Assembly (NCBI GenBank): GCA_030654305.1
Contig: JAURXS010000329.1
Location: forward strand, 1 to 32,565
Direction: 5' to 3'
Source of the DNA: a bacterium
GTDB taxonomy: Bacteria; Krumholzibacteriota; Krumholzibacteriia; LZORAL124-64-63
DNA length: 32,565 bases
The notes below the pieces were generated by a model. That model worked only from the letters and a program-made list of their open reading frames with translations, ran no database searches and was not told the origin of the DNA. A program made the position numbers and the translations under genes. Below are positions 7,478 through 32,373 of the stretch, one piece after another (the stretch's first letter is position 1; every line of letters begins with the position of its first letter).

Positions 7478-7484
7478 CACCGGC

Positions 7485-7502: not shown

Positions 7503-7535
7503 GTGCAACTTCTGCACAGCAATGGATTTATGCTC

Positions 7536-7551: not shown

Positions 7552-7615
7552 TGACGCACGCCGCGACCGGGTGTTGACTGTGATCGTGCCCCGAGATGCA
7601 GCCCTGGAGCGACCG

Positions 7616-9953: not shown

Positions 9954-9990
9954 GGCCGGCGGTGCGCACGCCAGACGAGGGAACGCGGCG

Positions 9991-11406: not shown

Positions 11407-11413
11407 AACCGAC

Positions 11414-11428
11414 CCGGTCCGCGACCGG
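11414..11428 (+). other. Small hairpin before the hpf ribosome site
   Basis: CCGGTC and GACCGG form a 6-bp stem with loop CGC, ending just before AAGGAGG, the hpf ribosome binding site. It could tune hpf translation or mark RNA processing between rpoN and hpf. This is inference only. Confidence 0.3.
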
Positions 11429-11440
11429 AAGGAGGACGCC

Positions 11441-11971
11441 ATGCAGCTCGAGATCAACAGCCGTCACTTCACCCTCGGCGACGACATGCGTGACAAGATC
11501 GTCGAGAAGCTCGAGAACCTGAAGCGCTACAGCCCGAGCGACCCGCTGGCCGCCCGTCTCACGCTGACGCTCGAGGGCGGTCGCTTCACCGGCGACCTCT
11601 CGCTGAACCTCAAGCAGTACTCCTGCCACACCAAGGTGCAGCACGTCGAGCCCGACGGCGCGGCCTTCCTGGCCATCGAGAGCGTCGAGCGGCAGGTGCG
11701 TCGGCACAAGGACCGGGTCAAGGACCACCGCGGGCGCGGCGAGGAGGGCGGCCTCGGCGAGGTCCTGGCCGGCCCCGGCCTGCTCGACAACAGCGGCTCG
11801 GCCCTGTCGCAGGAGGGCTTCCAGCTGCGCGACCTGACGGTGGACCAGGCGCAGGAGGCCTTCGCGGCCTCGAGCAGCCCGTTCTTCGTCTTCCGCAACA
11901 CCGAGAACGGCGAGGTTGCCGTGCTGTACCGCCGCGACGACGGCGGCTACGGCCTGATGCGGCAGGAATAG
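11441..11971 (+). CDS. hpf: Ribosome hibernation promoting factor, long form
   Basis: The 176-residue product is a long-form HPF that dimerises 70S ribosomes into inactive 100S particles under stress. The N-terminal S30AE domain (1 to about 105) includes FTLGDDMRDKIVEKLENL, LTLEGGRFTGDLSLNL and AIESVERQVRRHKDRVKDH. A linker of about 25 residues leads to the C-terminal dimerisation domain (about 125-176), with LTVDQAQEAF, SPFFVFRNTENGEVAVLYRRDDGGYGL. Short HPFs of Enterobacteria lack this second domain. AAGGAGG lies upstream of the ATG. Position between rpoN and hprK matches the common rpoN-hpf-(pts) cluster. Confidence 0.95.
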   Translation: MQLEINSRHFTLGDDMRDKIVEKLENLKRYSPSDPLAARLTLTLEGGRFTGDLSLNLKQYSCHTKVQHVEPDGAAFLAIESVERQVRRHKDRVKDHRGRGEEGGLGEVLAGPGLLDNSGSALSQEGFQLRDLTVDQAQEAFAASSSPFFVFRNTENGEVAVLYRRDDGGYGLMRQE

Positions 11972-11980
11972 GGGCGCGAC

Positions 11981-12952
11981 GTGCAGGAGCCGGTCACCGT
12001 CCAGAAGGTCCACCAGGACCTGCGCGAGACCCTCGGTCTCGCGCTGCTGACGAGCCTCCCCGCGCAGGACGTCCCGCTCGCCGCGGGGGACGTCCACCGC
12101 CCCGGCATGGCGCTGATGGGGTTCATGGAGAACTTCCTGCCCCACCGCCTGCAGGTCCTGGGCGAATCCGAGCTGGCCTACCTGGTCACCCTCGACCCCG
12201 ACGCGCAGCGCGGGGCCCTGGAGCGCCTGGTCGCCCTGCAGGCCCCGGCGGTGTTCGTGACCCGGGACCAGGCGGTGCCCGCCGCCTGGCTGGCCGCGGC
12301 CGACGCGGCCGGGCTGCCCGTGCTGCGCACCCCGATGGCCACCGAGGAGTTCATCCACGAGCTGTCGGTCTACCTCACCGACGCCTTCGCGCCGCGCGCC
12401 GAGCTGCACGGTTCGCTGGTGGACGTTTACGGCATCGGCATGCTGTTCACCGGCAAGAGCGGCATCGGCAAGAGCGAGTGCGCGCTCGACCTCGTGGAGC
12501 GGGGGCACCGCCTGGTGGCCGACGACATCGTCGAGGTCAGCCGCGTGGGCGACGACGTGCTGGTGGGCCGCTTCCGCGAGGTGCTGCAGCACAACCTGGA
12601 GATCCGCGGCGTCGGCGTGATCGACGTGCAGGCCATCTTCGGCATCCGCGGCATCCGCATGCAGAAGCGCATCGAGGTCGAGGTCAACCTCCAGCAGTGG
12701 CGGGCCGACGCCGACTACGAGCGCATGGGGCTCGACCGCGAGCAGACCGAGATCCTGGGCGTGCCGATCCCGCGCATCGTCGTGCCGATCTATCCCGGCA
12801 AGAACATCACGGTCATCGCGGAGGTGATCGCCCTGGACCTGATGCTGAAGATCTACGGCATCGACTCCGCACAGGACCTGAACCGCCGCATCATGGAGAC
12901 GCTGCGCTCCGGGGACCGGCTGCGCCGGTACCTGCGGCACGACAGGGAGTAA
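11981..12952 (+). CDS. hprK: HPr kinase/phosphorylase
   Basis: This 323-residue enzyme phosphorylates HPr on a regulatory serine and can reverse the reaction, tying PTS activity to metabolic state. The C-terminal kinase domain has the P-loop GKSGIGKS (158-165), VADDIVEV, and the HprK signature LEIRGVGVIDVQAIFGIRGIR region. The N-terminal domain (about 1-130) is typical. The GTG start is nine bases after hpf; the ribosome site is weak, so coupling is likely. Its target serine is present in the HPr encoded at 15415. It precedes the PTS EIIA gene by two bases. Confidence 0.95.
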   Translation: MQEPVTVQKVHQDLRETLGLALLTSLPAQDVPLAAGDVHRPGMALMGFMENFLPHRLQVLGESELAYLVTLDPDAQRGALERLVALQAPAVFVTRDQAVPAAWLAAADAAGLPVLRTPMATEEFIHELSVYLTDAFAPRAELHGSLVDVYGIGMLFTGKSGIGKSECALDLVERGHRLVADDIVEVSRVGDDVLVGRFREVLQHNLEIRGVGVIDVQAIFGIRGIRMQKRIEVEVNLQQWRADADYERMGLDREQTEILGVPIPRIVVPIYPGKNITVIAEVIALDLMLKIYGIDSAQDLNRRIMETLRSGDRLRRYLRHDRE

Positions 12953-12954
12953 TC

Positions 12955-13359
12955 ATGCTCTGCGGCCTCGTCGTCACGCACGGCGGCATCGGCAAGGAAC
13001 TGGTCCGGGTCGTGGAACTGGTGCTCGGGCCGGTGCCCGGGCTGGCGGCCATGACCAACAGCGGCAAGTCGGTCCAGGACCTGATCGACGAGATCCGCGC
13101 CTGGGCGGCCGCGAACTGCGGCGCGCCGGGCGACGGCCTGCTGCTGTTCATCGACGACTTCGGGGGGAGCTGCGCCAACGCCGCGCAGATCGCCGCGATC
13201 GGCGGCACGCCGGCGCGCATCCTGACCGGGATCAACCTGGCCATGCTGCTGGACTTCGTCACCTGGCGCGACACGCTGGGGCTCGACGAGCTGCCGCGTC
13301 GCCTGGTCGAGAAGGGACGCGACGCCATCACCGCGCTCGGACCCGTCCAGGAGGGCTGA
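12955..13359 (+). CDS. PTS mannose-family EIIA component
   Basis: The 134-residue cytoplasmic protein matches the mannose/sorbose-family EIIA domain. LVVTHGGIGKEL carries the phosphorylation-site His9 (usually His10), and LLLFIDDFGGSCANAA and GINLAMLLDFVTWRD complete the fold. It would take phosphate from HPr-His15 and pass it to the EIIB next door. AGGGAG lies just upstream of the ATG. It stands two bases after hprK and seven before EIIB. The sugar specificity cannot be set from this subunit. Confidence 0.92.
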   Translation: MLCGLVVTHGGIGKELVRVVELVLGPVPGLAAMTNSGKSVQDLIDEIRAWAAANCGAPGDGLLLFIDDFGGSCANAAQIAAIGGTPARILTGINLAMLLDFVTWRDTLGLDELPRRLVEKGRDAITALGPVQEG

Positions 13360-13366
13360 GCGCACC

Positions 13367-13873
13367 ATGCCGCTGCTGCTGGCCCGCATCGACGACCGCT
13401 TCATCCACGGCCAGGTGACCGTCGGCTGGTGCCGCAAGCTCGAGCCCGACCACCTCGTGCTGTGCAACGACGAGATCGCCGCCGACCCCTGGCAGCGCCG
13501 CGTCTACGCCAGTTCGGTGCCGCCGCGCATCCGCGTCTGGGTCCGCGACCGCGCCGGAACGGCCGCCCTGCTCGGCGACGGTCCCGAGGCGCTGCCCGCC
13601 GACGAGGGCGCGGTGCTGCTGACCGGCGGTCCGGCCGACATGCTCGACCTGGCGCGGCGGGGCGTGCCCCTGCCGGTGGTCAACGTCGGCGGCATGCACA
13701 TCGGCGGCGGCAAGCGCGAGCTGCTGGAATCGGTCTACGTCGACCGCGCCGACGTCGCGAGCCTGCGCGCCCTCTTGGCCGCCGGATCGCGGCTGACCGC
13801 GCAGACGGTGCCCGGCACGCGCGCGGTCGAGATCGACCGCGCGCTGCTGGACACGCTGGAGGAGGCGCGTTGA
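13367..13873 (+). CDS. PTS mannose-family EIIB component
   Basis: This 168-residue protein is a stand-alone EIIB of the mannose/sorbose family. The phosphorylation-site loop RIDDRFIHGQVTVGW includes His14 (usually His15), followed by VLCNDEIA; later, VNVGGMHIGGGKR is a family hallmark. It passes phosphate to sugar bound by the EIIC-EIID membrane unit. AGGAGGG lies about 13 bases upstream of the ATG. The stop overlaps the EIIC start (TTGA). Confidence 0.93.
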   Translation: MPLLLARIDDRFIHGQVTVGWCRKLEPDHLVLCNDEIAADPWQRRVYASSVPPRIRVWVRDRAGTAALLGDGPEALPADEGAVLLTGGPADMLDLARRGVPLPVVNVGGMHIGGGKRELLESVYVDRADVASLRALLAAGSRLTAQTVPGTRAVEIDRALLDTLEEAR

Positions 13874-14619
13874 ACCCGGTCGAGATCGCCGCCTGGTGGC
13901 CGCAGATCGCCGCGACCGCGCTGCTGGGCGCGCTGCTGGTCCTGGACGACACGGCCTACGCGCAGACCTGGCTCAGCCAGCCCGTCTGCGGCGGCGTGCT
14001 CGCGGGCCTGGTCTGGGGGCATCCCGGGGCCGGGCTGGCCCTGGGGCTGACCGTGCAGCTGCTGTCGCTGGGGAACCTGCCGGTCGGGCAGGCCTTCGTC
14101 GGTGAGCGCGTCGGACCGCTGCTCGGGGCCGTCGGCGCGGCGTCGGCCGCGGGCTGGAATCCCGGCCTGCCCTTCGGCGGGCCGGGCGCGGAAGCGGGCC
14201 GTCTCGGCTGGCTGCTGCTGGCGGTCGCGCTTGGCAGCTGCCTCGGCGACCGGCTGGTCCGCTGGGAGCGCGTCTGGCACACCCGCCTGGTCGCCGGCGC
14301 CATGCGCGGGTTGCGGGAGGGCCGGCTGGAGGTGCTGGAACGGGCCCACCGCTCCTCGCTGGCCGGCGTCGCGATCCGCGGCGCCCTGACGACCCTCGCG
14401 GTCTGGGGCCTGGTGGCGCTGCTCTGGATCCCGGCCTACGAGCGGTTGCCCGACCGCATCGTGGCGGCCCTGGCCCTGCTGCCCTGGTTCGCCCCGGCGG
14501 TGGCGATCGGCTCGCTGGTGGAACTCTACGGCAGCCGCGCCGGCGCGCGCTGGATCGCCGGCGGCGCGGCGGGCACGCTGGCCCTGGCCTGGACCCTGGC
14601 GCGGCTGGGCGCCTCGTGA
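13870..14619 (+). CDS. PTS mannose-family EIIC component (membrane permease)
   Basis: The 249-residue polytopic membrane protein matches mannose-family EIIC. Hydrophobic segments include ALLGALLVLDDTAYAQTW, GGVLAGLVWGHPGAGLALGL, LLLAVALGSCLGD, ALTTLAVWGLVALLW and IVAALALLPWFAPAVAIGSL. The motif LTVQLLSLGNLPVG is typical. The start is a TTG at 13870, four bases into the end of EIIB and preceded by GGAGGAGG. The EIID start overlaps its stop. It is close to normal length, so it should form a working channel with EIID. Confidence 0.85.
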   Translation: MNPVEIAAWWPQIAATALLGALLVLDDTAYAQTWLSQPVCGGVLAGLVWGHPGAGLALGLTVQLLSLGNLPVGQAFVGERVGPLLGAVGAASAAGWNPGLPFGGPGAEAGRLGWLLLAVALGSCLGDRLVRWERVWHTRLVAGAMRGLREGRLEVLERAHRSSLAGVAIRGALTTLAVWGLVALLWIPAYERLPDRIVAALALLPWFAPAVAIGSLVELYGSRAGARWIAGGAAGTLALAWTLARLGAS

Positions 14620-15374
14620 GCGCCCGCGGCGGCCGGCCCGACGACCTGCACGGGATCTACCGGCGTTCGCTGGGCCTGCAGGGCTCGTGGAATCCGGAGC
14701 GCATGCAGAACCTCGGTCTGGCCGTGGCCCTGCTGCCCTGGCTGCGACGGTCGGGCGCGGCGCCGGCGGACCTGCGGCGCTTCTGCCGCCGCCACCTGGA
14801 GTTCTTCAACACCAACCCCTACTTCGCGAACCTGCTGCTGGGGGGGCTGGTGCGGCTGGAGGCGGAGAACCTGCGCGGCGGCGCGACGCCCGTCCGGACG
14901 CTGACGATGTTCAAGGATTCGCTCGGGCGGGCGCTGGCCTCCCTGGGCGACCAGTTCCTGTGGCTGGGCCTGCAGCCGGCGCTGATGCTGCTGGCCGTCC
15001 TTTCGGCCTGGCCGGGGCTGGTCTGGCCGCCCCTGCTGGTGGTGGGCCTGTTCGCCGTGACCCAGCTGCTGCTGCGGCGCCGCGCCCTGCTGGTGGGCTA
15101 CGACCTGGGACTGGACATCGTGGACCTGCTGGGCTCGCCGCGCTGGCATCGCGCCATCTGGACCGCGAAGCGGGCCGGCGCCCTGCTGACCGGCGTGCTG
15201 GCCGGGATGACCGCCGTGAGCAGCTGGTCGCGCCTGGGCGACCCCGGCGGGACGACGACCGTGCTGGGCACCGCGCTGGCGATGGCGGCCGCCCTGTTCC
15301 TGCGGCGGCGCTGGCCGGGGGAGGGCCTGCTGCTGGCGCTGGTGCCGCTTGCCCTGCTCCTATCGTGCCTGTAA
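14616..15374 (+). CDS. PTS mannose-family EIID component
   Basis: This 252-residue membrane protein matches EIID, found only in the mannose PTS family. The N-terminal amphipathic part has YRRSLGLQGSWNPERMQNLG and FCRRHLEFFNTNPYFANLLLGG. TMFKDSLGRALASLGDQFLWLGL precedes C-terminal hydrophobic segments. It is somewhat shorter than typical EIID (about 270-300) but has the main motifs. Start GTG at 14616 overlaps the EIIC stop. Having both EIIC and EIID argues for real transport rather than only regulation. Confidence 0.88.
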   Translation: MSARGGRPDDLHGIYRRSLGLQGSWNPERMQNLGLAVALLPWLRRSGAAPADLRRFCRRHLEFFNTNPYFANLLLGGLVRLEAENLRGGATPVRTLTMFKDSLGRALASLGDQFLWLGLQPALMLLAVLSAWPGLVWPPLLVVGLFAVTQLLLRRRALLVGYDLGLDIVDLLGSPRWHRAIWTAKRAGALLTGVLAGMTAVSSWSRLGDPGGTTTVLGTALAMAAALFLRRRWPGEGLLLALVPLALLLSCL

Positions 15375-15414
15375 CTTGCGGACGGCTATTTCGCCCCCGA
15401 ACCAAGGACGCACC

Positions 15415-15696
15415 GTGATCGCAACCGTCGCCACCATCTCCGACCCCGTCGGCTTCCACCTGCGCGCCGCGGGACGGATCGTGAAACTGGCCAAGACGTT
15501 CGACGCCGAGGTGACGGTCCGCTTCCAGGGCCGGGTGGCGAACGCCAAGAGCATCATGGGGCTGGCCAGCCTGGCGGCCGACTGCGGCAGCGTCGTCGAG
15601 CTGGAGATCGACGGGCCCGACGACGCGGCGGCCGCCGCGGCCCTGGTCCGGCTGATCGAGATCGAGCTGGCGCACCCCGAGGTCCCGGAAGGCTGA
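15415..15696 (+). CDS. ptsH: Phosphocarrier protein HPr
   Basis: The 93-residue HPr carries phosphate from EI to EIIA. The active-site loop is DPVGFHLRAAG with His15; the usual H-A-R-P is here H-L-R-A, so the proline after Arg17 is replaced. The regulatory site is Ser46 in AKSIMGLASLAA, the target of HprK. Conservation of both sites supports dual control. I chose GTG at 15415, behind AAGGAC, since it places His15 and Ser46 at family positions; the upstream extension is not HPr-like. It is one base from ptsI. Confidence 0.92.
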   Translation: MIATVATISDPVGFHLRAAGRIVKLAKTFDAEVTVRFQGRVANAKSIMGLASLAADCGSVVELEIDGPDDAAAAAALVRLIEIELAHPEVPEG

Positions 15697-15697
15697 C

Positions 15698-17470
15698 ATG
15701 AGGATCCTGCGCGGCATCCCCGCTTCGCCCGGCACGGCCCTGGCCCGCGTCCACCACGTGACGCGCGACCTGCCCGTGGTCGTGCGCGCCGTGCTGCCCG
15801 CGTCGGACCTCGACCGCGAGGTGTCGCGCCTGCACGCGGCGCTCGCGGACGCCCGCGCCCAGATCCAGGCCCTGGTCGCGCGGCTCAGCGCGGACCTCGG
15901 GCCGGAGGGCGCGGCGATCCTGGAGAGCCACCTGCTCATCCTCGAGGACGAACTGGTCGTCGACCGCGCGGTCGCGCTCGTGCGCGCGCAGTCCTGCAAC
16001 GCGGAAGCCGCCTTCCACGACGCCGTGGCCGAGGTCGCGTCCAGCCTGCTCGAATCCCAGGACGACTACCTGCGCGAGCGCGTCCAGGACCTGCGCGACG
16101 TCGAGGACCGGGTCCTGCGGGCCCTGATGGGGCTCGGCGTCGGGCGCCTCGTCGGTCCCGCGACGCCCAGCGTGGTCGCGGCCGACGACCTGGCCCCGTC
16201 GGACACCGCGGCCATCGGCGCGCGCAACGTGCTGGCGTTCGCGCTGGGCGGGGGCAGCCGGACCAGCCACGTGGCGATCCTCGCCCGCTCGCTGGGCATC
16301 CCGGCGGTGGCCGGTCTCGGCGCGGCCGTGGCGGAGCTGCACGACGGCGATCTGGTCGCCGTCGACGGCGACCGCGGCGAGGTCATCCTGCAGCCCGACA
16401 GCGAGACCGTCGCCCGCTACCGGCAGCTGAGCCAGCAGCAGCTGACCGTGAACGCCAAGCTGGCCCACCTGAAGGACGAGCCGGCGATCACGCCCGACGG
16501 CCGCCGCCTGGGCATGCTGGCGAACATCGAGATGCCCGTCGAGGTGGAGAAGGCGCTGGCCTGCGGCGCCGAGGGGATCGGCCTGCTGCGGACCGAGTAC
16601 ATCTACTTCCAGCGCCAGACCATCCCGACCGAGGCGGAGCAGCTCGAGATCTACGCCGGGATCATGCGCGGCATGGAGGGCCGGCCGGTCGTCTTCCGCA
16701 CCCTGGACGTCGGCGGCGACAAGGTCCAGCGCTACCTCGGGGCGCGCAAGGAGTCCAACCCCTTCCTGGGCTGGCGCGGCATCCGCTTCCTGCTGGCCAA
16801 CCGGCCCCTGCTCAAGGCCCAGCTGCGCGCGATCTACCGCGCCGCCGCCGGCGGGCCGGCGCGGCTGATGTTCCCGATGATCACCGGCGTCGAGGAGCTG
16901 CGCGAGGCGCGCGACGCCTGCCGCGAGTGCGTGGCCGAGCTGGCGGCCGAGGGGCTGCCCCACGACCCGGACCTCGAGGTGGGGATCATGATCGAGACGC
17001 CGGCCGCCGCGCTGGTGGCCGACCTGCTCGCCGACGAGTGCGACTTCTTCAGCTTCGGCACCAACGACCTCGTCCAGTACACCCTGGCGATGGACCGCCT
17101 GAACAGCCGCGTGGCGTACCTCTACCAGCCGGTGCACCCCGCCGTGCTGCGCCTGCTGCGCGACGCGACCGCCGCCGCGCACGCGGCCGGCATCCGGGTC
17201 GGCATCTGCGGCGAGATGGCTTCCGAGACGCGCTACGCCGAGATCCTGCTGGGCCTCGGGCTCGACGAGGTCAGCGTCCACGCCGCGCAGCTGCCGAAGA
17301 TCAAGCAGGTCGTGCGCTGGACGACGGTCGCGGAGGCCAAGGGGCTCCTGGCCGACCTGATGTCGCGCCGCACCGCCGCCGAGGCCGACCTCCTGCTCGC
17401 CGACTACCTGGCCGAGAAGAAACGCCAGCGCGCCGCCGCCGGGTCGCCGGAGGTGCCCGATGGCGCCTGA
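15698..17470 (+). CDS. ptsI: Phosphoenolpyruvate-protein phosphotransferase (enzyme I)
   Basis: This 590-residue EI takes phosphate from PEP and passes it to HPr. The N-terminal phosphohistidine domain has GGSRTSHVAILARSLGIPAV with active His191 (E. coli His189). The C-terminal PEP-binding TIM barrel has GAEGIGLLRTEYIYF, FRTLDVGGDKVQRYL, MIETPAA, FSFGTNDLVQYTLAMDR and the catalytic GICGEMAS with Cys504. The length is typical. GGAAGG precedes the ATG. The last 11 bases overlap the isomerase gene. Confidence 0.97.
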   Translation: MRILRGIPASPGTALARVHHVTRDLPVVVRAVLPASDLDREVSRLHAALADARAQIQALVARLSADLGPEGAAILESHLLILEDELVVDRAVALVRAQSCNAEAAFHDAVAEVASSLLESQDDYLRERVQDLRDVEDRVLRALMGLGVGRLVGPATPSVVAADDLAPSDTAAIGARNVLAFALGGGSRTSHVAILARSLGIPAVAGLGAAVAELHDGDLVAVDGDRGEVILQPDSETVARYRQLSQQQLTVNAKLAHLKDEPAITPDGRRLGMLANIEMPVEVEKALACGAEGIGLLRTEYIYFQRQTIPTEAEQLEIYAGIMRGMEGRPVVFRTLDVGGDKVQRYLGARKESNPFLGWRGIRFLLANRPLLKAQLRAIYRAAAGGPARLMFPMITGVEELREARDACRECVAELAAEGLPHDPDLEVGIMIETPAAALVADLLADECDFFSFGTNDLVQYTLAMDRLNSRVAYLYQPVHPAVLRLLRDATAAAHAAGIRVGICGEMASETRYAEILLGLGLDEVSVHAAQLPKIKQVVRWTTVAEAKGLLADLMSRRTAAEADLLLADYLAEKKRQRAAAGSPEVPDGA

Positions 17471-22052: not shown

Positions 22053-22080
22053 CGCCCGGTCACCGGCGCCCGGTCACCGG
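22053..22080. repeat. Perfect 14-bp tandem duplication at the lptG stop
   Basis: CGCCCGGTCACCGG occurs at 22053-22066 and again, identical, at 22067-22080. The lptG stop (TCA on the plus strand, 22074-22076) lies in the copy nearer to the gene. The period of 14 is not a codon multiple, so the second copy is not an in-frame backup stop. Confidence 0.85.
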
Positions 22081-23147
22081 CGCACTCGCAGCCACGCCAC
22101 GATCGCGACCCCGGCGTAGGCCAGGTTGCCGGCCCAGGCCGCCAGGAAGGGGGGGAGCGTGCCGTTGTGGCCCAGCGACCGTCCGAAGTTGATGGCCAGG
22201 TAGTACCCGAAGCTGATGGCGATCGTCCAGCCGAACCCCGAGGCGACCGTCGTCTTGCGGGGGCTCGAGGCCAGCAGGATGCCCAGCACCACCACGATCA
22301 GGTGCACCACCGGGAAGGACAGCTTGAACTGCAGGTCGACGCTGTGCGCCGTGGCGTCGCCGCCGCTGCGCCGGATCATGGCGATGTAGCGCCGCAGCTG
22401 CCGGGCGTTCATCGCCTCGGGCTTCAGCCGGTCGTCGAGGAAGGTGCGCGGCGTGATGCCGTCCAGGCCCGAGGCGTATTCGGCGAAGCGGATGAGGCTG
22501 TCGCCGCGGGCGGTGAAGACGCGGCGGGTCCCGTCCGCGAGCACCCACTGGCTGCCGTCCCAGTCGGCGCTGGCGGCGTCGATCCGCTCCAGGACGCGGG
22601 CTCCCGCGACCGTATGGACGCGGAACTCGCGGATCTGCTGGCGCTCGGGGGAGAAGCTGCGGACGTAGTAGAGGCGCCCGTCCGTGCCGTTGAAGGCGGC
22701 GTCGTTGGTCGGGCGCACGCGGTCGGGGTTGCCGTGGATCTCGACCTCCCAGATGCGCGCGACCCGGGCGTTGGTGCGGGGCAGGACGAACTCGCCCCAG
22801 ACCAGCGAGAGCAGGCAGGCGAGCAGGGCCAGGACCAGCAGGGGGCGGGTCGTCTGCAGCAGCGAGCGGCCGGCGGCGAACATGGCGCTCAGCTCGTTGT
22901 AGCGGGCCATGTCCCCGACGGTGAACAGCGTGGCCATGAGCATGCCGATGGGCAGGACCGTGTCGAGGATCCAGGGGATCTTGTTCAGGTAGTAGCGGGC
23001 GATCATCGACGCCGTGGCGTGGTTGTCGACGAAGTTGTCGAGGTGGCCGAAGAGGTCGACCAGGGAGAACAGGACGATCGCGCCGACCAGGGTGAAGCCC
23101 AGGATGCGCAGGAAGCCGGCGACGACGCTGCGGTGGACGAGTTGCAT
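22074..23147 (-). CDS. lptG: LPS export permease LptG
   Basis: The 357-residue permease pairs with LptF around LptB2 to extract LPS. It has three N-terminal membrane helices (ILGFTLVGAIVLFSLVDLFG; DTVLPIGMLMATLFTVGDMA; PLLVLALLACLLSLVWGEFV), a periplasmic beta-jellyroll domain (about 110-260; GRLYYVRSFSPERQQIREFR), then three C-terminal helices (FPVVHLIVVVLGILLA; GFGWTIAISFGYYLAINFG; LAYAGVAIVAWL). RYNELSAMFAAGRS is the coupling-helix region. The start overlaps the lptF stop (ATGA). It is about the family length. A 14-bp duplication covers its stop. Confidence 0.92.
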   Translation of the reverse strand: MQLVHRSVVAGFLRILGFTLVGAIVLFSLVDLFGHLDNFVDNHATASMIARYYLNKIPWILDTVLPIGMLMATLFTVGDMARYNELSAMFAAGRSLLQTTRPLLVLALLACLLSLVWGEFVLPRTNARVARIWEVEIHGNPDRVRPTNDAAFNGTDGRLYYVRSFSPERQQIREFRVHTVAGARVLERIDAASADWDGSQWVLADGTRRVFTARGDSLIRFAEYASGLDGITPRTFLDDRLKPEAMNARQLRRYIAMIRRSGGDATAHSVDLQFKLSFPVVHLIVVVLGILLASSPRKTTVASGFGWTIAISFGYYLAINFGRSLGHNGTLPPFLAAWAGNLAYAGVAIVAWLRVRR

Positions 23148-24514
23148 CACGGTCTCCGCGTCCGTCGGCCCCAGGCGTTCTCGCGCGCGGCGTGCACGAG
23201 CAGGGGGATCCCGATCGCCGTCAGCACCCCGTCGGCCGCCCACATCGCCAGGGCCGGGTCGAGCCGCCCGCGGTCGGCCATCTTCTCGCCGCCGATCAGG
23301 AACAGGTAGTAGAAGAGGTAGAACGCCAGCGCCAGGGTCAGCGAGACGCCCCGCCCGGAGCGCGACGCCGTGACGGCCATGGGCAGCCCGATCAGCACGA
23401 AGACCACGCAGGCGGCGGGGATGGCCAGCTTCTTGTGGAACTCGACGAGGAAGGTGTTCTCGCGGGCCTGCTTGGAGCGCAGCACGCTCAGCTGGAACTC
23501 CGAGGCGCGGCGCACGCGCTGCACCTCCTGGCGGGTGGCGCGCAGCATCTCGAGCCGCCGGCCGCGGGTGTCGGCCGGGCCGCCGGACGGGGCTTCGGTC
23601 AGGCCCCCGCGCGCCGGCGCGTCCAGCAGCAGCCACTGCCGCTCCGCCGCCCCGCCGGCCAGCTCCCGCTGCCCCGCCATGGTCTCCTCGCGGTCGCGTC
23701 GCGCCTCGGCGGCGGCCCCGAGCAGGGCGGTGAAGTCCATCTCGCGGTCGCCGCGGCTGGTGCGGCCGGAGTCCTCGAGGTCCCGCTCGACGTCCGCGAG
23801 CTGCAGGTCGTGCCGGCGGAAGCGCGTGATGGTGTACTGGGAGAGGTCGCGGTCTTCCGGCAGGTCGTGGATCTCGCCGTCGTACAGCTCGATCCGCATC
23901 GCGTTGCGGTCGTGCAGGGGCACGATCAGGCCGCGCGCGGCGGTGGTCATCGTCGGGGAGGTGTCGCCGGGCCCGCTGCGCTCCAGCAGGACGATGTCCA
24001 GGATCTCGTTTGTCTTCTCGTTCTTTTCCTTGACGTAGATGGTGGTGAGGTCGTTGAGGTCCGTGAACATCTGCTCGCGGATCTCCATCATCGGTCTTTT
24101 GTGTTTGATGTCGTACAGGAGGTTGGCTAGCCTGTGGTTCGACTCCGGGAAGACGTAGTGGTTGTAGGCGGTCAGGCCGGCCGCCACCAGCGCGGCGCCG
24201 AACAGCAGGGGCCGCAGGATGGCGTAGAGCCCCACGCCGCTCGCCTTCATGGCCGTGATCTCGTGGTCCGTGGCGAGCTGGCCGATACCCATCAGGACCC
24301 CGATCAGGACCGCCATGGGCACGGATAATGCAAACGTGTAACCCAGGCTCAACAGAAGCACTTCCGTGGCCACCACGAACGGCACGCCCTTGGTGACGAA
24401 CAGATCGACGTAGCGGTACAGGTTGTCGATGATCAGCACGAAGGTGATCACGAAGAAGCCGAACACGAAGGGTCCGGCGGTGGCGCGCAGCAGATGCCGT
24501 TGGAGCAGGATCAT
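23147..24514 (-). CDS. lptF: LPS export permease LptF, with a polar insert
   Basis: This 455-residue permease has the LptF/LptG (YjgP/YjgQ) layout: FVFGFFVITFVLIIDNLYRY, LGYTFALSVPMAVLIGVLMG with ATDHEITAMKASG (coupling helix), and ILRPLLFGAALVAAGLTAY, then a periplasmic domain, then C-terminal helices from KKLAIPAACVVFVLIGLPMA. It is about 90 residues longer than typical LptF. The extra part (about 235-345) is rich in Arg, Glu and Ala, lacks hydrophobic runs, and may form a coiled coil before TM4. Co-transcribed with lptG. Divergent from sprA across a 220-base gap. The ribosome site is weak: AGGAG lies about 17 bases away. Confidence 0.9.
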   Translation of the reverse strand: MILLQRHLLRATAGPFVFGFFVITFVLIIDNLYRYVDLFVTKGVPFVVATEVLLLSLGYTFALSVPMAVLIGVLMGIGQLATDHEITAMKASGVGLYAILRPLLFGAALVAAGLTAYNHYVFPESNHRLANLLYDIKHKRPMMEIREQMFTDLNDLTTIYVKEKNEKTNEILDIVLLERSGPGDTSPTMTTAARGLIVPLHDRNAMRIELYDGEIHDLPEDRDLSQYTITRFRRHDLQLADVERDLEDSGRTSRGDREMDFTALLGAAAEARRDREETMAGQRELAGGAAERQWLLLDAPARGGLTEAPSGGPADTRGRRLEMLRATRQEVQRVRRASEFQLSVLRSKQARENTFLVEFHKKLAIPAACVVFVLIGLPMAVTASRSGRGVSLTLALAFYLFYYLFLIGGEKMADRGRLDPALAMWAADGVLTAIGIPLLVHAARENAWGRRTRRP

Positions 24515-24734: not shown

Positions 24735-27700
24735 TTGTTCGGTGTGCGGGGATGCGACCGGAGGCTGGGCCGGGGCAGGCGGTCGCCGCCGTCCCGGCCC
24801 GCGCTCGTCCGTGCCGCGCCGCTCTTCCTGATCGCGTGGCTCGCGCTGCTGGGCGCCGCGGGCGGGGCCGCCGCCGGCGACCTGATCCTCTGGGGCCTCG
24901 ACCCGCTGCTGCGTTCCACCGACGATCCCCGCCTGCTGGGCGAGGACCGGCTCGTCCTGCGCGAACGGATGCTGGCGCTGGGGTTCGACCCCGTCGGGAC
25001 GGATTCGCTGTCGCGTTTCGACCGCCGCCTGCGGTACCTCTCCGACGCCGCGGCGGGCGCCGACTGGAAGCGCCGCGTCACGGTGACCGAGTCGTCCGGC
25101 CCCCTGGGCATCGAGACCGTCTTCAGCTACCCCGAGTACTTCCTGCTGACGCAATCCCCCCGCGAGCTGCCCGGCGGCTTCGTCTACTACCCGCCCCGGG
25201 ACACCGACGCGCCCGAGGTGGAGCTGTTCATCGACGACCAGGCCGCGGCCCGTGAGCGGCGGCTGGCCGTGCGCAACCGGGTCGCGCTCGCCAGGGACCT
25301 CGACCTGCGCGGCGGCGCCGGCGGCGCCGGGACGCAGACCGGGCTGATCAACCTGACGATCCCGATCAAGCTGCCGCGGACCCTCGAGAAGATCATCGGC
25401 CGCGGCGAGAAGACCAACATCCGCATCTCGGGCCGCGAGCACATCTCCATCGCCGGCGAGTCGACGCTGAGCAACCACTTCGTCCAGAGCGAGCGGCGCC
25501 GCAGCCAGAGCCTGTTCCCGTCCCTGGACATGGAGCAGCAGCTGCAGATCAACCTCTCGGGGCAGATCGGCGAGAAGATCAAGCTCGAGGTGGACCACAA
25601 CAGCGAGGGGCTCGGGCCGGAGGCGACCAAGATCCGCCTGACCTTCGAGGGCACCGAGGACGAGATCATCCAGACGATCGAGACCGGCGACGTGGGGCTC
25701 ACCCTGCCGGGTAGCCAGCTGCTCGGCTACAGCTCCAACGCGTCGGGCCTGTTCGGCCTCAAGGTGACCGGCCAGTTCGGCCCCGCCGACTTCACGGTGC
25801 TCGCCACCAAGCAGAAGGCCGAGAGCGCCGGCCGCACCTTCAACTCCAGCGGCGGCTCCCAGACCGAGCACGTCATCTACGCCTACCAGTACCTGAACAA
25901 CCGCTTCTTCCGCCTCGACCTGCCGCCGAACGACATCGTGGCCCACCGGCGCCCCGATGTGCCGGGACGCGACCGGCAGCAGGAGAGCATCGACCTGGGT
26001 TCGGTGCAGGTGTTCCTGTCGGTCACCGGCCGGCAGCAGGACGGCGACATCCGCAACATCGTGGCGGTGACCGACACCACCGGGCTCTGGTCGGCCGAGA
26101 CCGTGGGCGCGGCGCTGCCGGGCGGCCACTACGGCGAGCTGTGGCGGCCGGTGAACTTCGAGATCATCCGCGACCAGAACGACGAACTGGTCGCGATCGA
26201 CCTGCTGCGCGAGTACGGCTTCTACGACGTGCTGGCGGTCATCTACGAGGTGATCCTGCCGGACGGCACCCGGCGGCGCGTCGGCGACAAGCCGGGCGTC
26301 GACGAGACGAACCGCGTGGAGTACCAGGGCGAGCTCTACTACCGCATGAAGATGCTGAAGCCCCAGAACCCGGAGCCCTACACCTGGCAGTACGTGCTGC
26401 GCAACATCTACCCCCTGGGCGGCAGCAACATCGACGCCGCCAGCTTCGACCTGCGTCTCGAGACCACGCTGCAGACCAACTACCCCGAGCAGGACCTGGA
26501 CAACACGGGCGCCGGCAGCGGGCTGAAGTGGATCCGCATCTTCGGGCTCGACCGCACGACCCCGCAGAACGTCGCCGGCCACGACGACCGGGTCGACGCG
26601 CACGACCCCTACCTCTTCGACCTCACCCGCGGCCTGCTGAAGTTCCCGCTCGACTTCCCGGAGCCGTTCAACGCCGCGCCGGAGGTCTACGAGGCCTTCG
26701 CCGACTCCTCGGTGTACGACCCGCAGACGACGCTGCTGGACACCATCCCCCAGATCTACAGCACCGCCATCACCCCGCAGCAGATGACCCAGTACACCCA
26801 GTACCGCTTCGTGGCCACGCACGCCGCCGCCTCCAGCACCTTCAACCTCGGCGCCTCGAACATCGAGGAGGGCTCCGAGACCGTGACGCTCGACGGCCGC
26901 ACGCTGGTGCGGGACACCGACTACGTCATCGACTACTCCTTCGGCGAGGTCACGCTCAAGGGCGAGGCCGCCGCCAACATGACGGCGGACTCCCGCATCG
27001 CCGTGAACTACCAGTTCGCCCCCTTCGTGGGCGGCGGCAACAGCAGCCTCATGGGCTTCAACCTGGGGATGGACGTCGGGCGCGACGGCCGCTTCGCCAC
27101 CACCTGGCTCTACGAGAGCAACGCGGTGGTGGGCCACAAGGCGAAGCTGGGCGAGGAGCCCAGCCGCACGCTCGTGGGCAACCTCAACGGCCAGGTCACC
27201 GTGCGGCCCGGGGTGCTGACCGGGTTCGCGAACCTGCTGAGCCGGCACGACTCCGACCGCGAGAGCAACGTGCGGCTGACCGGCGAGCTGGCCCTGAGCG
27301 TCCCCAACCCCAACACCTTCAACGAGGTCTACGTCGAGGACTACGAGGGGGTCGACTCCTCGGACCTGCTGCCCGTCAACCGCCTGGCCTGGAGCGCCGC
27401 CTCGGTCCCGGCGCACGGCACGGGCCTGTCCGTGCCGCCGGGCGACCCGCGCGCCTACCTGGTCGGCCGCGAGTTCACGCCGCAGGGGCGCCTCGACACC
27501 CGCTGGTTCCTGCCGCGCGAGATCACCCAGCGCCGCTACCTGAACCCGGAGCTGCGCGAGCAGGAGGCGCGCGAGTCGCAGCAGGTGCTCCAGATCCACC
27601 TGTCGAACGGCGGCGAGGCGTGGACGCCGGAGAGCTGGGGCGGCATCACGCACGGGCTCGGCCGCAACGGCGTCGACCTGACCAAGGCCCAGTTCCTCGA

Positions 27701-30700
27701 GTTCTGGGTCAACGACTTCCGGCACGAGGCGCTCGGCACGACGCCGGACGGCACCCTGCACTTCGACTTCGGGTACATCAACGAGGACGGCTACTGGCCC
27801 GTGGGGACCGGCGGCGCGCTGGAGACGGGCACCTACCAGCGCGAAGACGGCGTCATGGGCGACGCCCCGGACGGCATCTGGGAGATCCGCGAGGACGTCG
27901 GTCTCGGCAACGACGCCGTGCGGGACCGCTTCAACGCCGACTTCGGCACCGACGGCGACCCCTACCCGTGGATCAACGGCACCGCCGGCAACAACCGCGA
28001 GGACTCCGAGGACCTCGACGGCGACTCCATCCTCGACGACAAGGACGGCTTCTTCACGATCAGCGTGGACCTGGCCGACTCGGCCATGGTCGACGTCCTG
28101 CGCGACTTCCCGCCGTCGGAGGTGACCGCGAACCTCGACCAGCGGCTGTCCTGGCGCAAGTACCGCATCCGTCTCGGCGACCGGCTGCCGGTGGTGCCGC
28201 CCGGCGGCATCACGCCGCAGCTGGCCACGGCGACCCACCTGCGGATCTGGTTCGAGAACCGCGACCCGGCCGCCGCCGAGACCGTGCGCGACATCCAGCT
28301 GACCGAGATCAAGCTGCTCGGGACCCGCTGGGAGCGGGAAGGCGTGCGCCGCGTGCCGTCGGCCGCGGCGCCCGACGAGCTGCTGCTGACCCCGGCCGAC
28401 CTGGCGGCGGGGGAGGAGTTCTTCCTCGGCGAGGTGAACAACAAGGAGAACCCGGACTACGCCCCCCCCTTCGCCCTGCGCATCGAGAACCAGGTGCAGG
28501 AGAAGGAGACCTCGCTGGTGCTCGACTACCAGAACCTGCAGCGCCAGCACATGGTCCGCGCCAGCCGGCTGATCTCGCCCCAGGGCGAGGACTTCACGCG
28601 CTACGAGCGCCTGCTCTGGTACGTCTTCAACCCCGACCCGGACCAGGCCGACATGGAGGTCTTCTACCGGGTCGGCGCCGACACGCTCAACTACTACGAG
28701 ATCAGCTACCGCTTCGACGAGAGCGACGGCGCCCGCAGCGGCTGGCAGGCCATCAGCCTCGACCTCGCCGAGCTCAGCAACGCCAAGCTCGACGCGCGGG
28801 ACCCCGTCTCGGGCTGGATCGTGACGCGCGTGCGCGACTCGGAGGCCGACCGCGACTACCGGGTCCGCGTCGTCGGCTCGCCCGACCTGCGCCGCGTCAA
28901 GCGCTTCTACCTGGGCGTGCGCAACACCGACCGCAGCGCGGGGGCCAGCGGCTACTTCTACTTCAACGACGTCCGGCTGCAGTCGGTGCGGCGGGAGATG
29001 GGCTTCGCCGAGCGCATCGCCATGAGCGTGAACATGGCCGACATCATCAAGACCGACTTCGACTGGTCGCGGCGGGACGCCGAGTTCCACGGGTTGAGCA
29101 GCGACGTCGGCCAGGGCTACACGAACGAGGACTGGAACCTCACCTCAAGCTTCCGCGTCGACGATTTCGTGCCGCTGCTCGGCTACCGCGTGCCGGTGAG
29201 CCTCGGCCGCCAGTCCGGCGTCCGCCGGCCCAAGTACGTCACCAACAGCGACATCGAGATCATCGACGAGGCGCTGCGCGAGCGGGAGTCCTCGCGCAAC
29301 GAGCGGGAGAGCTTCTCGGTGCGCGTGACGCGGGCGCCCTCGGTCCACCCCCTGTTGCGGTACTTCGTCGATCCCTGGACCGTCGGCCTCAGCGGCTCGC
29401 GCTCCGGCGACGAGACGCCGCTGGCCATCCAGCGGGGCAAGAACCTGCAGGGCTCGCTCACGTACGACCTGCGCATCGCCGGCGACCGGAAGCTGGAGAC
29501 CGTCCCGCTGCTCGGCCGCGTCCCGCTGCTGCGGAGCGTCGGGCTGCTGCCCTCGAAGGTCACGTTCAGCGGCAACTACTCCGCGACCGAGCGCCGCGCC
29601 CAGAACTACAACGTGCTGACCGGGATCTTCGAGGCCCGCCCGACGCAGCGGACGCGCACCGGCGCCCTCACCGGCTCCTTCTCCTACAGGCCGCTGCCCA
29701 TCGTCGACCTGGACTTCACGGCCCGCTCCGACCGCGACCCGCTCCGGCCGCAAGAGGCCCTGGGCTTCAACTTCGGGCAGGAGAACGTCTACGCCCAGCA
29801 GGTCCAGCTGCGCTTCCAGCCCCCCCAGCGGCTGGAAGCGCCCGCGGGCTGGTGGGCGCGCCCGCTGGACCTCGCGCTGCGCGCCTCGCGTTCCCTGCGC
29901 CCGACGCTGAACTTCAACGGCTCGTTCAGCGACAACCATTCGCCGTCGGTGCGCCAGACCGGCGACCCGCCCGGGATCAGCAACATCCAGAACAGCGGCG
30001 ACTGGACCGTGCGCCTGTCGCTGCCGATCGACGGCCTGGTCAACCGGCTGGTCCCGCGCCGGTCCACCCTCTCGCGCGACGAGCAGGGCGCCCGCCTGCG
30101 GCAGCAGGCCGAACAGGCGCGGCGCCAGCAGGGCGGCGGCGGGACGGGCGGCCCCGCCGCGACCGGCGAGCCGGCCGGGACGGAAGAACCGGGTGCCGTC
30201 GGCGTCTCCAGCGCGACGCCGGTCCGCGACCCGCGCCTCGACGACCCGAACCTGACGGACGAGGAGCGCCGGGCGATCGAGGAGGAGGCGCTGCTGCGCC
30301 GGGCCGAGGATGAGGCGCGGGACGAGCAGGAACGCCGCGAGCGGCGCGAGCGGGAGCGGACCCTCGCCGCCCCGGCCCTCGCCGATTCGGCAACGGTCGC
30401 GGCCGCCGCCGCCGCCGACACCGCCGCCGCCGCACCCGCGCCGGGACGGCGCTGGCGGGTGCCGAACCCCCTGCCCGGGTTCCTGGAGGTCCTGCGGGAG
30501 ACCCAGCCGGTCCAGGTCAACTACTCGCGCAAGAAGCAGGCGAGCTACGGCCGCTTCACCGGCAACGCGCCGTTCTGGTACCGCGTCGGCTTCTACAACG
30601 ACTACGCGGCCGCCGAATCGCTCTACGTCAGCCACGGCCTCAGCGACCAGACCGCGCTCACGATGTCGACCAGCACGAAGCTGGGACGCATGGCCTCGCT

Positions 30701-31394
30701 CGACGTGAACTACTCGCGCACCGTCAGCGAGGCCGAGCAGGCGGGTCTGGTGACGGAATCCTACAACCGCGACTGGCCGGACCTGCGCTTCTCCCTGACG
30801 GGGCTCGAGCGGCTCGGCCTGCTCGGCGGCGGCGGCACCGACGGCCTGCTGCGGTCGGCCAACCTGCAGGTCAACTACAAGTTCACCCGCAACGTCCCGA
30901 ACATCACGGCGACCCAGTACAACCCGCGCGAATCCAGCCAGATCACGCCGCGCCTGAACTTCACCTTCCAGAACGGCATGTCGGCCAGTCTGAACGTCGG
31001 CAGCAGCGTGGACCGGTCCGAGCAGACCGGCAGCCTGAGCTCGACCGGCCGCTTCAACGTCAACGTGCAGCTGCGGCACCAGTTCCGCGCCGAGAAGCTG
31101 CTGTCGCGGCTCGGCCTCTACAAGCCCGGCGCCCAGCCGAACATCAACATGGACATCGACATCAGCATGTCCCGCGACACCACGGAACGCTGGTTCGCCG
31201 GCTCGGACCGCGCGGGCGAGCCCGACCAGAGCACCGGCACCTCCCGGTGGAGCTTCAACCCCCGCTTCAGCTACCAGCTCAGCCGCAACCTGTCGGGGGC
31301 GTTGCGGTTCATCTACTCGCGGGACACGGTCAAGGAGACCGACCTGGTGACGCAGCGCTTCGGGCTGGGACTGGAGGCGACCTTTGTCTTCTAG
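24735..31394 (+). CDS. SprA/Sov-like giant outer-membrane beta-barrel (type IX secretion translocon family)
   Basis: The 2219-residue protein has an N-terminal signal peptide (hydrophobic LFLIAWLALLGAAGGAAAG) and resembles SprA, the outer-membrane channel of the Bacteroidota type IX system. SprA-like parts include an N-terminal domain from about 213 (LPRTLEKIIGRGEKTNIRIS), EDEIIQTIETGDVGLTLPGS at 308, then LFGLKVTGQFG. A second copy of the theme lies around 1390-1450 (VKRFYLGVRNTDRS, FYFNDVRLQSV). Many amphipathic beta segments follow, and the chain ends in FVF, a BAM-type terminal aromatic signal. Residues about 1776-1905 are a polar Gln/Arg/Glu/Ala-rich insert. It starts at TTG 24735, six bases after GGGAGG; GTG 24744 is possible. 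Length fits SprA (about 2300-2500). No PorV or other T9SS gene lies here. Confidence 0.82.
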   Translation: MFGVRGCDRRLGRGRRSPPSRPALVRAAPLFLIAWLALLGAAGGAAAGDLILWGLDPLLRSTDDPRLLGEDRLVLRERMLALGFDPVGTDSLSRFDRRLRYLSDAAAGADWKRRVTVTESSGPLGIETVFSYPEYFLLTQSPRELPGGFVYYPPRDTDAPEVELFIDDQAAARERRLAVRNRVALARDLDLRGGAGGAGTQTGLINLTIPIKLPRTLEKIIGRGEKTNIRISGREHISIAGESTLSNHFVQSERRRSQSLFPSLDMEQQLQINLSGQIGEKIKLEVDHNSEGLGPEATKIRLTFEGTEDEIIQTIETGDVGLTLPGSQLLGYSSNASGLFGLKVTGQFGPADFTVLATKQKAESAGRTFNSSGGSQTEHVIYAYQYLNNRFFRLDLPPNDIVAHRRPDVPGRDRQQESIDLGSVQVFLSVTGRQQDGDIRNIVAVTDTTGLWSAETVGAALPGGHYGELWRPVNFEIIRDQNDELVAIDLLREYGFYDVLAVIYEVILPDGTRRRVGDKPGVDETNRVEYQGELYYRMKMLKPQNPEPYTWQYVLRNIYPLGGSNIDAASFDLRLETTLQTNYPEQDLDNTGAGSGLKWIRIFGLDRTTPQNVAGHDDRVDAHDPYLFDLTRGLLKFPLDFPEPFNAAPEVYEAFADSSVYDPQTTLLDTIPQIYSTAITPQQMTQYTQYRFVATHAAASSTFNLGASNIEEGSETVTLDGRTLVRDTDYVIDYSFGEVTLKGEAAANMTADSRIAVNYQFAPFVGGGNSSLMGFNLGMDVGRDGRFATTWLYESNAVVGHKAKLGEEPSRTLVGNLNGQVTVRPGVLTGFANLLSRHDSDRESNVRLTGELALSVPNPNTFNEVYVEDYEGVDSSDLLPVNRLAWSAASVPAHGTGLSVPPGDPRAYLVGREFTPQGRLDTRWFLPREITQRRYLNPELREQEARESQQVLQIHLSNGGEAWTPESWGGITHGLGRNGVDLTKAQFLEFWVNDFRHEALGTTPDGTLHFDFGYINEDGYWPVGTGGALETGTYQREDGVMGDAPDGIWEIREDVGLGNDAVRDRFNADFGTDGDPYPWINGTAGNNREDSEDLDGDSILDDKDGFFTISVDLADSAMVDVLRDFPPSEVTANLDQRLSWRKYRIRLGDRLPVVPPGGITPQLATATHLRIWFENRDPAAAETVRDIQLTEIKLLGTRWEREGVRRVPSAAAPDELLLTPADLAAGEEFFLGEVNNKENPDYAPPFALRIENQVQEKETSLVLDYQNLQRQHMVRASRLISPQGEDFTRYERLLWYVFNPDPDQADMEVFYRVGADTLNYYEISYRFDESDGARSGWQAISLDLAELSNAKLDARDPVSGWIVTRVRDSEADRDYRVRVVGSPDLRRVKRFYLGVRNTDRSAGASGYFYFNDVRLQSVRREMGFAERIAMSVNMADIIKTDFDWSRRDAEFHGLSSDVGQGYTNEDWNLTSSFRVDDFVPLLGYRVPVSLGRQSGVRRPKYVTNSDIEIIDEALRERESSRNERESFSVRVTRAPSVHPLLRYFVDPWTVGLSGSRSGDETPLAIQRGKNLQGSLTYDLRIAGDRKLETVPLLGRVPLLRSVGLLPSKVTFSGNYSATERRAQNYNVLTGIFEARPTQRTRTGALTGSFSYRPLPIVDLDFTARSDRDPLRPQEALGFNFGQENVYAQQVQLRFQPPQRLEAPAGWWARPLDLALRASRSLRPTLNFNGSFSDNHSPSVRQTGDPPGISNIQNSGDWTVRLSLPIDGLVNRLVPRRSTLSRDEQGARLRQQAEQARRQQGGGGTGGPAATGEPAGTEEPGAVGVSSATPVRDPRLDDPNLTDEERRAIEEEALLRRAEDEARDEQERRERRERERTLAAPALADSATVAAAAAADTAAAAPAPGRRWRVPNPLPGFLEVLRETQPVQVNYSRKKQASYGRFTGNAPFWYRVGFYNDYAAAESLYVSHGLSDQTALTMSTSTKLGRMASLDVNYSRTVSEAEQAGLVTESYNRDWPDLRFSLTGLERLGLLGGGGTDGLLRSANLQVNYKFTRNVPNITATQYNPRESSQITPRLNFTFQNGMSASLNVGSSVDRSEQTGSLSSTGRFNVNVQLRHQFRAEKLLSRLGLYKPGAQPNINMDIDISMSRDTTERWFAGSDRAGEPDQSTGTSRWSFNPRFSYQLSRNLSGALRFIYSRDTVKETDLVTQRFGLGLEATFVF
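30402..30435 (+). repeat. GCC triplet-rich run in the sprA-like gene
   Basis: An interrupted GCC run encodes AAAAADTAAAA within the polar insert of the SprA-like protein. It sits just before the conserved barrel resumes (RRWRVPNPLPGF). It could vary in length by slippage without a frameshift if changes come in threes. Confidence 0.6.
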
Positions 31395-32373
31395 GAACGT
31401 GTCTTCTAGAAACGTGTCTTCCCGCGACACCGGGCGCCCGCGGCGCTCGCCGCCGGCCGTCGCGCTGTTCCTGGCCGCGGCGGCGCTGGCCGCGGCCTGG
31501 GGCGGCGCGGCCGGCGCCGCCGAGTTCGACGGCGCGCGGGCGATGTCCTGGCTGGAGCGCCAGTGCGCCTTGGGGCCGCGCATCCCCGGTTCGCCCGGCC
31601 ACGCCGCCCTGGAGGCGGCGATCCTCGAACACGCCCGCTCCCTGGGGCTGACCGCCCACCGCCTGCCCTTCGACCGGCCCCATCCCTACGCCCGGGAGAC
31701 GCTGCGCCTGACGAACCTGGTGATCCTGGCGGGCCGGGGCAGCGGCCCCCGCCTCTGGATCGGCGCGCACTACGACAGCCGGCCGACCTGCGACCGCGAC
31801 CCCGACCCCGCGCGCGCGGCCCGGCCGCTGACCGGAGCCAACGACGGCGCCAGCGGCACCGCGGTCCTGCTACACCTGGCCGAGCTGATGGCGGCCGAAC
31901 CGCCGCCGCGGCCCGTGGCGCTGATCTTCTTCGACGGCGAGGACCTCGGCCGCGCCGGGGACCTCGACGGCTACTGCCTGGGCTCGCGCCGGCTGGCCGA
32001 GCACTGGAACGACTTCGGCGCGCCCCTCGCCGGCCCGCCGCCGCGGGGGCTGATCCTGCTGGACATGGTCGGCGACCGCGACCTCGCGATCCCGCAGGAG
32101 GGCTACGGCCTGGCGCTGGCCGGGGAGTGGACCCGGACCGTCTTCGCGCGGGCGGAGGCGCTGGGGCTGTCGGCCTTCGTGCCGGAGCCGGGGCCGGCGG
32201 TCTTCGACGACCACGTGCCGTTCCTGCATCGCGGCCTGCCCGCCGTCGACCTCATCGACTTCGACTACCCGGCCTGGCACACCGCCGCCGACGTGCCGGC
32301 GGCCTGCTCGGCCGCCAGCCTGGAGCAGGTGGGGGCCCTGGTCTGGGACCTGATCCGGCACCCGCCCGACTGA
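31384..32373 (+). CDS. Secreted M28-family zinc enzyme, glutaminyl-peptide cyclotransferase-like
   Basis: The 329-residue protein has an N-terminal signal peptide (PAVALFLAAAALAAAWGGAAGA) and an M28 fold. Residues match animal-type glutaminyl cyclase, which turns N-terminal Gln into pyroglutamate: GAHYDSRP (His129), GANDGASG (Asp154, zinc), FFDGED (Glu186 acid/base, Asp187 zinc), then YCLGSRRLAEHW, LLDMVGD (Asp227), DDHVPFLHRGLP and WHTAAD (His299, zinc). An aminopeptidase role is the alternative. The TTG at 31384 is six bases after GGAGG (31373-31377) and overlaps the end of sprA by 11 bases; in-frame GTGs at 31399 and 31414 sit in the tandem repeat and are alternative starts. Overlap suggests coupled expression with sprA. 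Confidence 0.85.
   Translation: MSSRNVSSRNVSSRDTGRPRRSPPAVALFLAAAALAAAWGGAAGAAEFDGARAMSWLERQCALGPRIPGSPGHAALEAAILEHARSLGLTAHRLPFDRPHPYARETLRLTNLVILAGRGSGPRLWIGAHYDSRPTCDRDPDPARAARPLTGANDGASGTAVLLHLAELMAAEPPPRPVALIFFDGEDLGRAGDLDGYCLGSRRLAEHWNDFGAPLAGPPPRGLILLDMVGDRDLAIPQEGYGLALAGEWTRTVFARAEALGLSAFVPEPGPAVFDDHVPFLHRGLPAVDLIDFDYPAWHTAADVPAACSAASLEQVGALVWDLIRHPPD
31385..31421 (+). repeat. 15-nt tandem repeat across the sprA stop and M28 start
   Basis: TGTCTTCTAGGAACG (31385-31399) is followed by TGTCTTCTAGAAACG (31400-31414), one mismatch in 15, and a third partial copy TGTCTTC (31415-31421). The period is five codons, so the sprA TAG at 31392 is repeated in frame at 31407. In the other frame it gives the M28 N-terminus SSRNVSSRNVSSR and provides GTG start options. 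Confidence 0.85.

Follow-up and report, generated by a model that had tools for sequence, protein, structure and literature searches.

A gene predicted to encode a type II glutaminyl cyclase overlaps the sprA translocon gene in a member of Krumholzibacteriia and lies directly downstream of sprA in several phyla

In Bacteroidetes, the residue at position +1 after signal peptidase cleavage is Gln in about 71% of cases, a regularity known as the Q-rule (PMC5837995, 2018; PMC10653852, 2023). The co-occurrence of the Q-rule with the type IX secretion system (T9SS) was noted in 2018 and judged not to be mechanistic for targeting, and mutagenesis in P. gingivalis gave evidence against control of T9SS targeting by pyroglutamate (PMC5837995). 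A stability role has been described for pyroglutamate capping (PMC10653852), and a role of glutaminyl cyclase (QC) in stability is compatible with both studies. A published survey restricts the T9SS to Bacteroidetes (PMC4793230). BLAST hints of a T9SS outside Bacteroidetes exist.

The window analysed here is a stretch of 32,565 nucleotides (contig JAURXS010000329.1) from a bacterium of the class Krumholzibacteriia. In an initial annotation it had been proposed to carry, outside Bacteroidota, an SprA/Sov-like barrel gene that shares 11 bases with the gene of a glutaminyl-cyclase-like M28 protein. The host indeed lies outside Bacteroidota, and both genes were found where they had been placed (Table 1). 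The SprA ORF matches TIGR04189 with 476 bits (cut-off 200) and Pfam SprA_N with 43 bits (cut-off 27) in profile searches, and its closest solved structure is Flavobacterium johnsoniae SprA (6h3i, 3.3e-30). It thus shares with the Flavobacterium and Porphyromonas translocon SprA/Sov the TIGR04189 equivalog, over cut-off, but SprA of the window type is distant from these proteins, with 461-476 bits compared with about 1,100 in a Bacteroidetes-labelled genome, and differs from them in having a QC gene directly 3' of sprA.

Table 1. Features of the sprA-QC locus, in window coordinates.
Feature	Position	Strand	Basis
lptG-like LPS export permease gene, divergent from sprA	22077..23174	-	Pfam LptF_LptG 2.6e-73
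lptF-like LPS export permease gene, divergent from sprA	23147..24514	-	Pfam LptF_LptG 4.3e-82
sprA/sov, T9SS outer-membrane translocon, 2219 aa, signal peptide	24735..31394	+	TIGR04189, SprA_N, PDB 6h3i
GGAGG, Shine-Dalgarno-like, within sprA Leu-Glu-Ala codons, 6 bases before TTG 31384	31373..31377	+	sequence
Third-last sense codon of sprA, TTT (Phe), yielding the QC TTG start in the shifted frame	31383..31385	+	codon counts, family comparison
sprA/QC overlap, 11 bases	31384..31394	+	ORF coordinates; start at -11 kept in family
Predicted type II (animal-like, M28) glutaminyl cyclase, 329 aa, predicted signal peptide	31384..32373	+	PDB alignment, AF2, Foldseek, invariant residues
15-base tandem repeat units (gtgtcttctaggaac-like), alternative GTG starts 31399 and 31414	31399..31428	+	sequence

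Other T9SS components accompany SprA in this class. The PorV family (PF19572) was detected over cut-off in 37 of 38 genomes, including the genome that contains the window; this genome also has 48 matches to the T9SS sorting domain (CTD, TIGR04183), most of them over cut-off; the other genomes of the class have from 36 to more than 100 CTD matches each. The co-occurrence of SprA with PorV-like and CTD proteins is a further likeness to the Flavobacterium and Porphyromonas systems. GldL/PorL and GldM/PorM gave no match above cut-off in the 38 genomes, and searches of controls gave none either. From these profile matches, it is fair to say that the secretion system of Krumholzibacteriia appears T9SS-like. 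A highly divergent SprA-like protein of 2174 residues, far under the family cut-off, was also observed in a poribacterial genome (G042:C1:1478797-1482453).

The M28 protein carries the four motifs expected of a QC (FFDGED, LGSRRLA, DDHVPFLHRG and WHT), and the key residues of these motifs are invariant in an alignment of 28 relatives from many phyla. Its predicted zinc ligands are D154, D187 and H299, with E186 as the catalytic residue and W298 preceding the zinc His in WHT, and none of these residues varies in the 28 relatives; in the alignment with Porphyromonas QC (PgQC), D154 and D187 occupy the places of PgAsp149 and PgAsp183, which are among its three zinc ligands (PMC7948796). By sequence, the best PDB match is the QC of the planctomycete Fimbriiglobus ruber (7d1b, 1.9e-36), and the QCs of Porphyromonas, Tannerella, Bacteroides and Parabacteroides are also among the best matches. 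An AlphaFold (AF2) model built from the 28-row alignment (pLDDT 89.6) was compared with known structures using Foldseek: the top 50 matches, the first at 1.8e-29, are all QCs or entries later recognised as QCs.

The alternative that this protein is an aminopeptidase trimming exported proteins might be read from the Pfam name of its domain (Peptidase_M28, PF04389, matched at 1e-26) and from the few related PDB entries with older structural-genomics titles of leucine aminopeptidase or exopeptidase. These older exopeptidase-titled structures, however, are grouped with QCs in PMC7948796, a characterised aminopeptidase matches the protein at 3e-5 only in the PDB sequence search, and the DDHxPF and WHT motifs are invariant, as is the Asp typical of bacterial QCs as third zinc ligand. 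Moreover, an unrelated QC is found in genomes that do not have this gene (see below). An aminopeptidase identity, which we regard as very remote, was rejected on the structural comparison, in which the model falls with QCs, that of Porphyromonas included. The protein is therefore classified, by sequence and modelled structure, as a predicted type II QC, in agreement with the initial annotation, and it would be expected to have cyclase activity.

Compared with PgQC (6qql), the Tannerella enzyme and BtQC (7d1d), the window QC shares the M28 fold (Foldseek E values of 1e-28 to 1e-29). Its zinc-site residues are equal to those of these enzymes, including the bacterial Asp that replaces Glu, and it is exported as they are; the lipobox of PgQC is also carried by many of the SprA-linked relatives. 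The window QC is only 28-31% identical to the Porphyromonas, Tannerella and Bacteroides QCs, and the Trp of the bacteroidal subgroup (PgTrp193) is replaced by Tyr197, the bacteroidal Trp being absent from the F. ruber enzyme as well. Gene position differs too: the window QC gene follows sprA, whereas the bacteroidal QC gene lies with hemG and the planctomycete QC loci examined have no sprA in reach.

The overlap of 11 bases holds only if translation of QC starts at TTG 31384. At the QC start, tandem copies of a 15-base unit (31384-31428) provide three in-frame starts, TTG, GTG and GTG; close relatives do not have this repeat. The TTG is favoured over the two GTGs because GGAGG lies 6 bases upstream, because a start codon is found exactly at -11 in 21 of the 22 genomes of the window's family, and because the sprA codon that creates it is otherwise unused. 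The start at -11 is TTG in 19 genomes, that of the window included, where sprA has TTT, and ATG in two, where the Phe codon of sprA has become a Tyr codon (TAT); GGAGG or a similar motif before the QC start is also conserved among family members. The TTT at 31383 is the sole TTT among the 80 Phe codons of the window sprA, the other 79 all being TTC, and TTT accounts for 13 of 1305 Phe codons (1%) in a sample of the same genome. Because the choice between TTT and TTC leaves SprA unchanged, the codon is most naturally explained by selection on the nucleotides, in the simplest case on the downstream start, and the overlap looks to be under selection. The codon constraint and the start at -11 are direct evidence, short of proof, for translational coupling of sprA and QC. 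In two other families of Krumholzibacteriia, an ATG within sprA at -26, formed by conserved His-Ala codons (CAT GC), may be the QC start, so that coupling by overlap may recur at another position.

Conservation of the pair was surveyed first in Krumholzibacteriia. All 38 genomes of the class that were searched have SprA (36 of them above the family cut-off when pieces are counted), and 35 have an orthologue of QC. In 32 of the 34 genomes with an informative contig, QC lies directly 3' of sprA; in two, from another family, carAB is inserted between the two genes, all on one strand. Among GTDB species genomes more widely, the 80 best QC loci include 33 with sprA directly upstream, representing at least seven phyla: Fidelibacterota (Neomarinimicrobiota, 15), Krumholzibacteriia and near relatives (5), Zixiibacteriota (4), Calditrichota (3), Eisenbacteria (3), KSB1 (1), Gemmatimonadota (1) and one record labelled Bacteroidota (1). 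The pair is conserved far beyond chance. No sprA was found within 1.5 kb of QC in any of 19 Bacteroidota-phylum genomes with a clear QC orthologue; QC and sprA are likewise separated in loci of Ignavibacteriota, Kryptonia, Fibrobacterota and Cloacimonadota, and genomes of Planctomycetota, Chloroflexota and Armatimonadota have a type II QC but no sprA. On a QC tree, adjacency to sprA is strongly clustered, yet 13 changes are required, as would fit either one gain with many losses or several gains. We found no report of the sprA-QC pair in the open-access literature searched.

The genes surrounding the pair are less constant. Upstream, the divergent lptG-like gene keeps its position in nearly all Krumholzibacteriia and also in Eisenbacteria, KSB1 and Gemmatimonadota loci (in the window, the adjacent lptF-like gene matches NCBIfam LptF_YjgP at 6e-65, slightly below cut-off), and in Krumholzibacteriia and Eisenbacteria a longer string, lptGF / sprA-QC-rimP-nusA, is conserved. 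Elsewhere, the upstream gene is of the Ham1 family (Neomarinimicrobiota) or murB (one zixibacterium). Downstream, the pair is followed by rimP-nusA, by prmA in several genomes, by an endo/exonuclease-family gene or by an HHH gene, and about half of the genera in the window's own family have non-rimP genes after QC. Since these outer neighbours differ within and between phyla, the pair persists while its setting changes. Two further observations concern gene order: one Bacteroidota-phylum genome has QC head to head with rimP-nusA and no sprA in reach, which echoes the Krumholzibacteriia order; and positions 6476-17470 of the window carry a series of genes for the envelope and for PTS regulation (SIS/CBS-domain protein, lipid A acyltransferase, ABC ATPase, sigma-54, S30EA, HPr kinase, sorbose/mannose-type PTS components and enzyme I).

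Gln at +1 was counted among signal peptidase I (SPI) substrates predicted with a home-made signal peptide caller on sampled stretches of genomes. The caller is crude and probably undercounts Gln after Ala runs in GC-rich genomes; in the window's genome, for example, 5 of about 21 substrates have Gln at +1 by eye and 3 by the caller. About 7 in 100 predicted SPI substrates of Krumholzibacteriia have Gln at +1, compared with 6 of 12 (about 50%) in a Bacteroidetes-labelled control genome and 6 of 21 in Neomarinimicrobiota with the same caller. In the CTD cargo of QC-bearing Krumholzibacteriia, the proportion is 9 of 51 (18%, interval 8-31%), against 4.7% Gln at positions +2 to +9 (p 5e-4). There is therefore a modest excess of Gln at +1 in T9SS cargo, and the Q-rule, which the initial annotation had invoked from Bacteroidota, is not followed in Krumholzibacteriia. 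These bacteria resemble Q-rule organisms in combining an exported QC with a T9SS-type system, but Gln at +1 is a minority state in their proteins overall as well as in their cargo.

It was expected that Gln at +1 would disappear where the linked QC is lost. This failed in G031, a genome without type II QC, where 5 of 17 CTD proteins (29%) have Gln at +1; the excess in cargo is therefore independent of this particular QC gene. The failure led to the finding of a type I QC. Type I QCs (PF05096) are of the papaya type, a beta-propeller with a fold unrelated to that of type II QC. The three genomes in which rimP directly follows sprA and which have no type II QC orthologue (G029, G031 and G037) all carry a stand-alone exported type I QC (244-291 bits), with a lipobox in two and an SPI-type signal in one. 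Among the 35 genomes with type II QC, PF05096 was matched over cut-off in five, and in the two of these that were inspected the domain sits behind another domain. For the association of type I QC with type II QC loss, the Fisher p is 0.007 when genomes are counted and 0.003 when genera are counted; as G029 and G037 belong to the same family, it involves at least two families and perhaps no more than two independent events. That all three genomes without type II QC have an unrelated exported QC points to cyclase activity in the envelope as the actual requirement, and makes the count in G031 compatible with a functional link. The two inspected genomes, that of the window (G000:C361:15439-16119, in an open frame) and G017 (G017:C218), thus hold both QC types. 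Stand-alone, lipoprotein-type type I QCs were also observed in two more Krumholzibacteriia (G131:C74:2016-2714 and G136:C1:2444651-2445346), which would be expected to have no sprA-linked type II QC.

We consider it probable that sprA and QC are an old, translationally coupled two-gene unit, and that, in an envelope of T9SS type, the periplasmic QC caps some of the exported proteins. The sprA product would form the channel through the outer membrane in a type IX-like secretion system, and the overlapping gene, its translation coupled to that of the sprA end, would supply a Sec-exported type II QC to the periplasm. There, the enzyme would turn N-terminal Gln, and possibly some Glu, exposed by signal peptidase into pyroglutamate. 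It would act on only some exported proteins, part of the T9SS cargo among them, and the cap would protect these against aminopeptidases before they pass through SprA or while they do so. We infer the enzyme activity, the substrates and a role shared with SprA; action on SprA cargo in particular is suggested by the linkage and by the excess of Gln in cargo. Several observations stand against this reading: Gln at +1 is a minority state and is equally frequent in G031; QC and sprA are non-adjacent in Bacteroidota, where T9SS and Q-rule are known; type II QC exists without sprA in many lineages (Planctomycetota, Chloroflexota, Armatimonadota); the P. gingivalis mutagenesis speaks against control of T9SS targeting by pyroglutamate (PMC5837995); and GldL and GldM gave no match, in the controls as well as here. 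The proposal of the initial annotation that export and N-terminal capping work as one unit is thus strengthened by the conservation of the pair and weakened by the departure from the Bacteroidota Q-rule, and the functional link would still be an indirect deduction.

The occurrence of type II QC without sprA, its separation from sprA in Bacteroidota, Ignavibacteriota, Fibrobacterota and Cloacimonadota, the inclusion of the pair in the longer lptGF / sprA-QC-rimP-nusA string and the fact that Gln at +1 does not follow QC presence could also be accounted for if old envelope genes were merely kept in order by operon expression, QC serving general periplasmic proteins. We regard this as unlikely, since the pair survives turnover of the genes on either side, within phyla as well as from one phylum to another, and a synonymous sprA codon that preserves the coupled start is retained despite a strong codon bias. 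The tight translational coupling to sprA alone and the weak overall Gln enrichment would also fit a QC dedicated to a single component of the T9SS or outer membrane, or to a few of them (for instance an SprA partner, PorV or a lipoprotein), the point of the coupling being dosage. As the predicted mature N terminus of SprA, determined by eye, is not Gln, the target would then be another component; no candidate substrate was identified and some cargo proteins do have Gln at +1, and we hold this explanation to be improbable.

For the coupled capping unit, a wider possibility, which we put forward tentatively and at somewhat less than even chances, is that in the non-Bacteroidota members of FCB the T9SS translocon and pyroglutamate capping form one coupled export-maturation unit inherited from a common ancestor, the Q-rule of Bacteroidota having arisen later, after the two genes separated. 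Descriptions of the T9SS commonly limit it to Bacteroidota, and the physically coupled sprA-cyclase pair is found in at least seven other phyla. The conserved pair, and the unrelated cyclase present where type II QC is lost, reopen with genetic evidence the question of T9SS and capping raised in 2018 (PMC5837995), and the pair names organisms, and one synonymous codon, in which the link between T9SS and capping may be tested.
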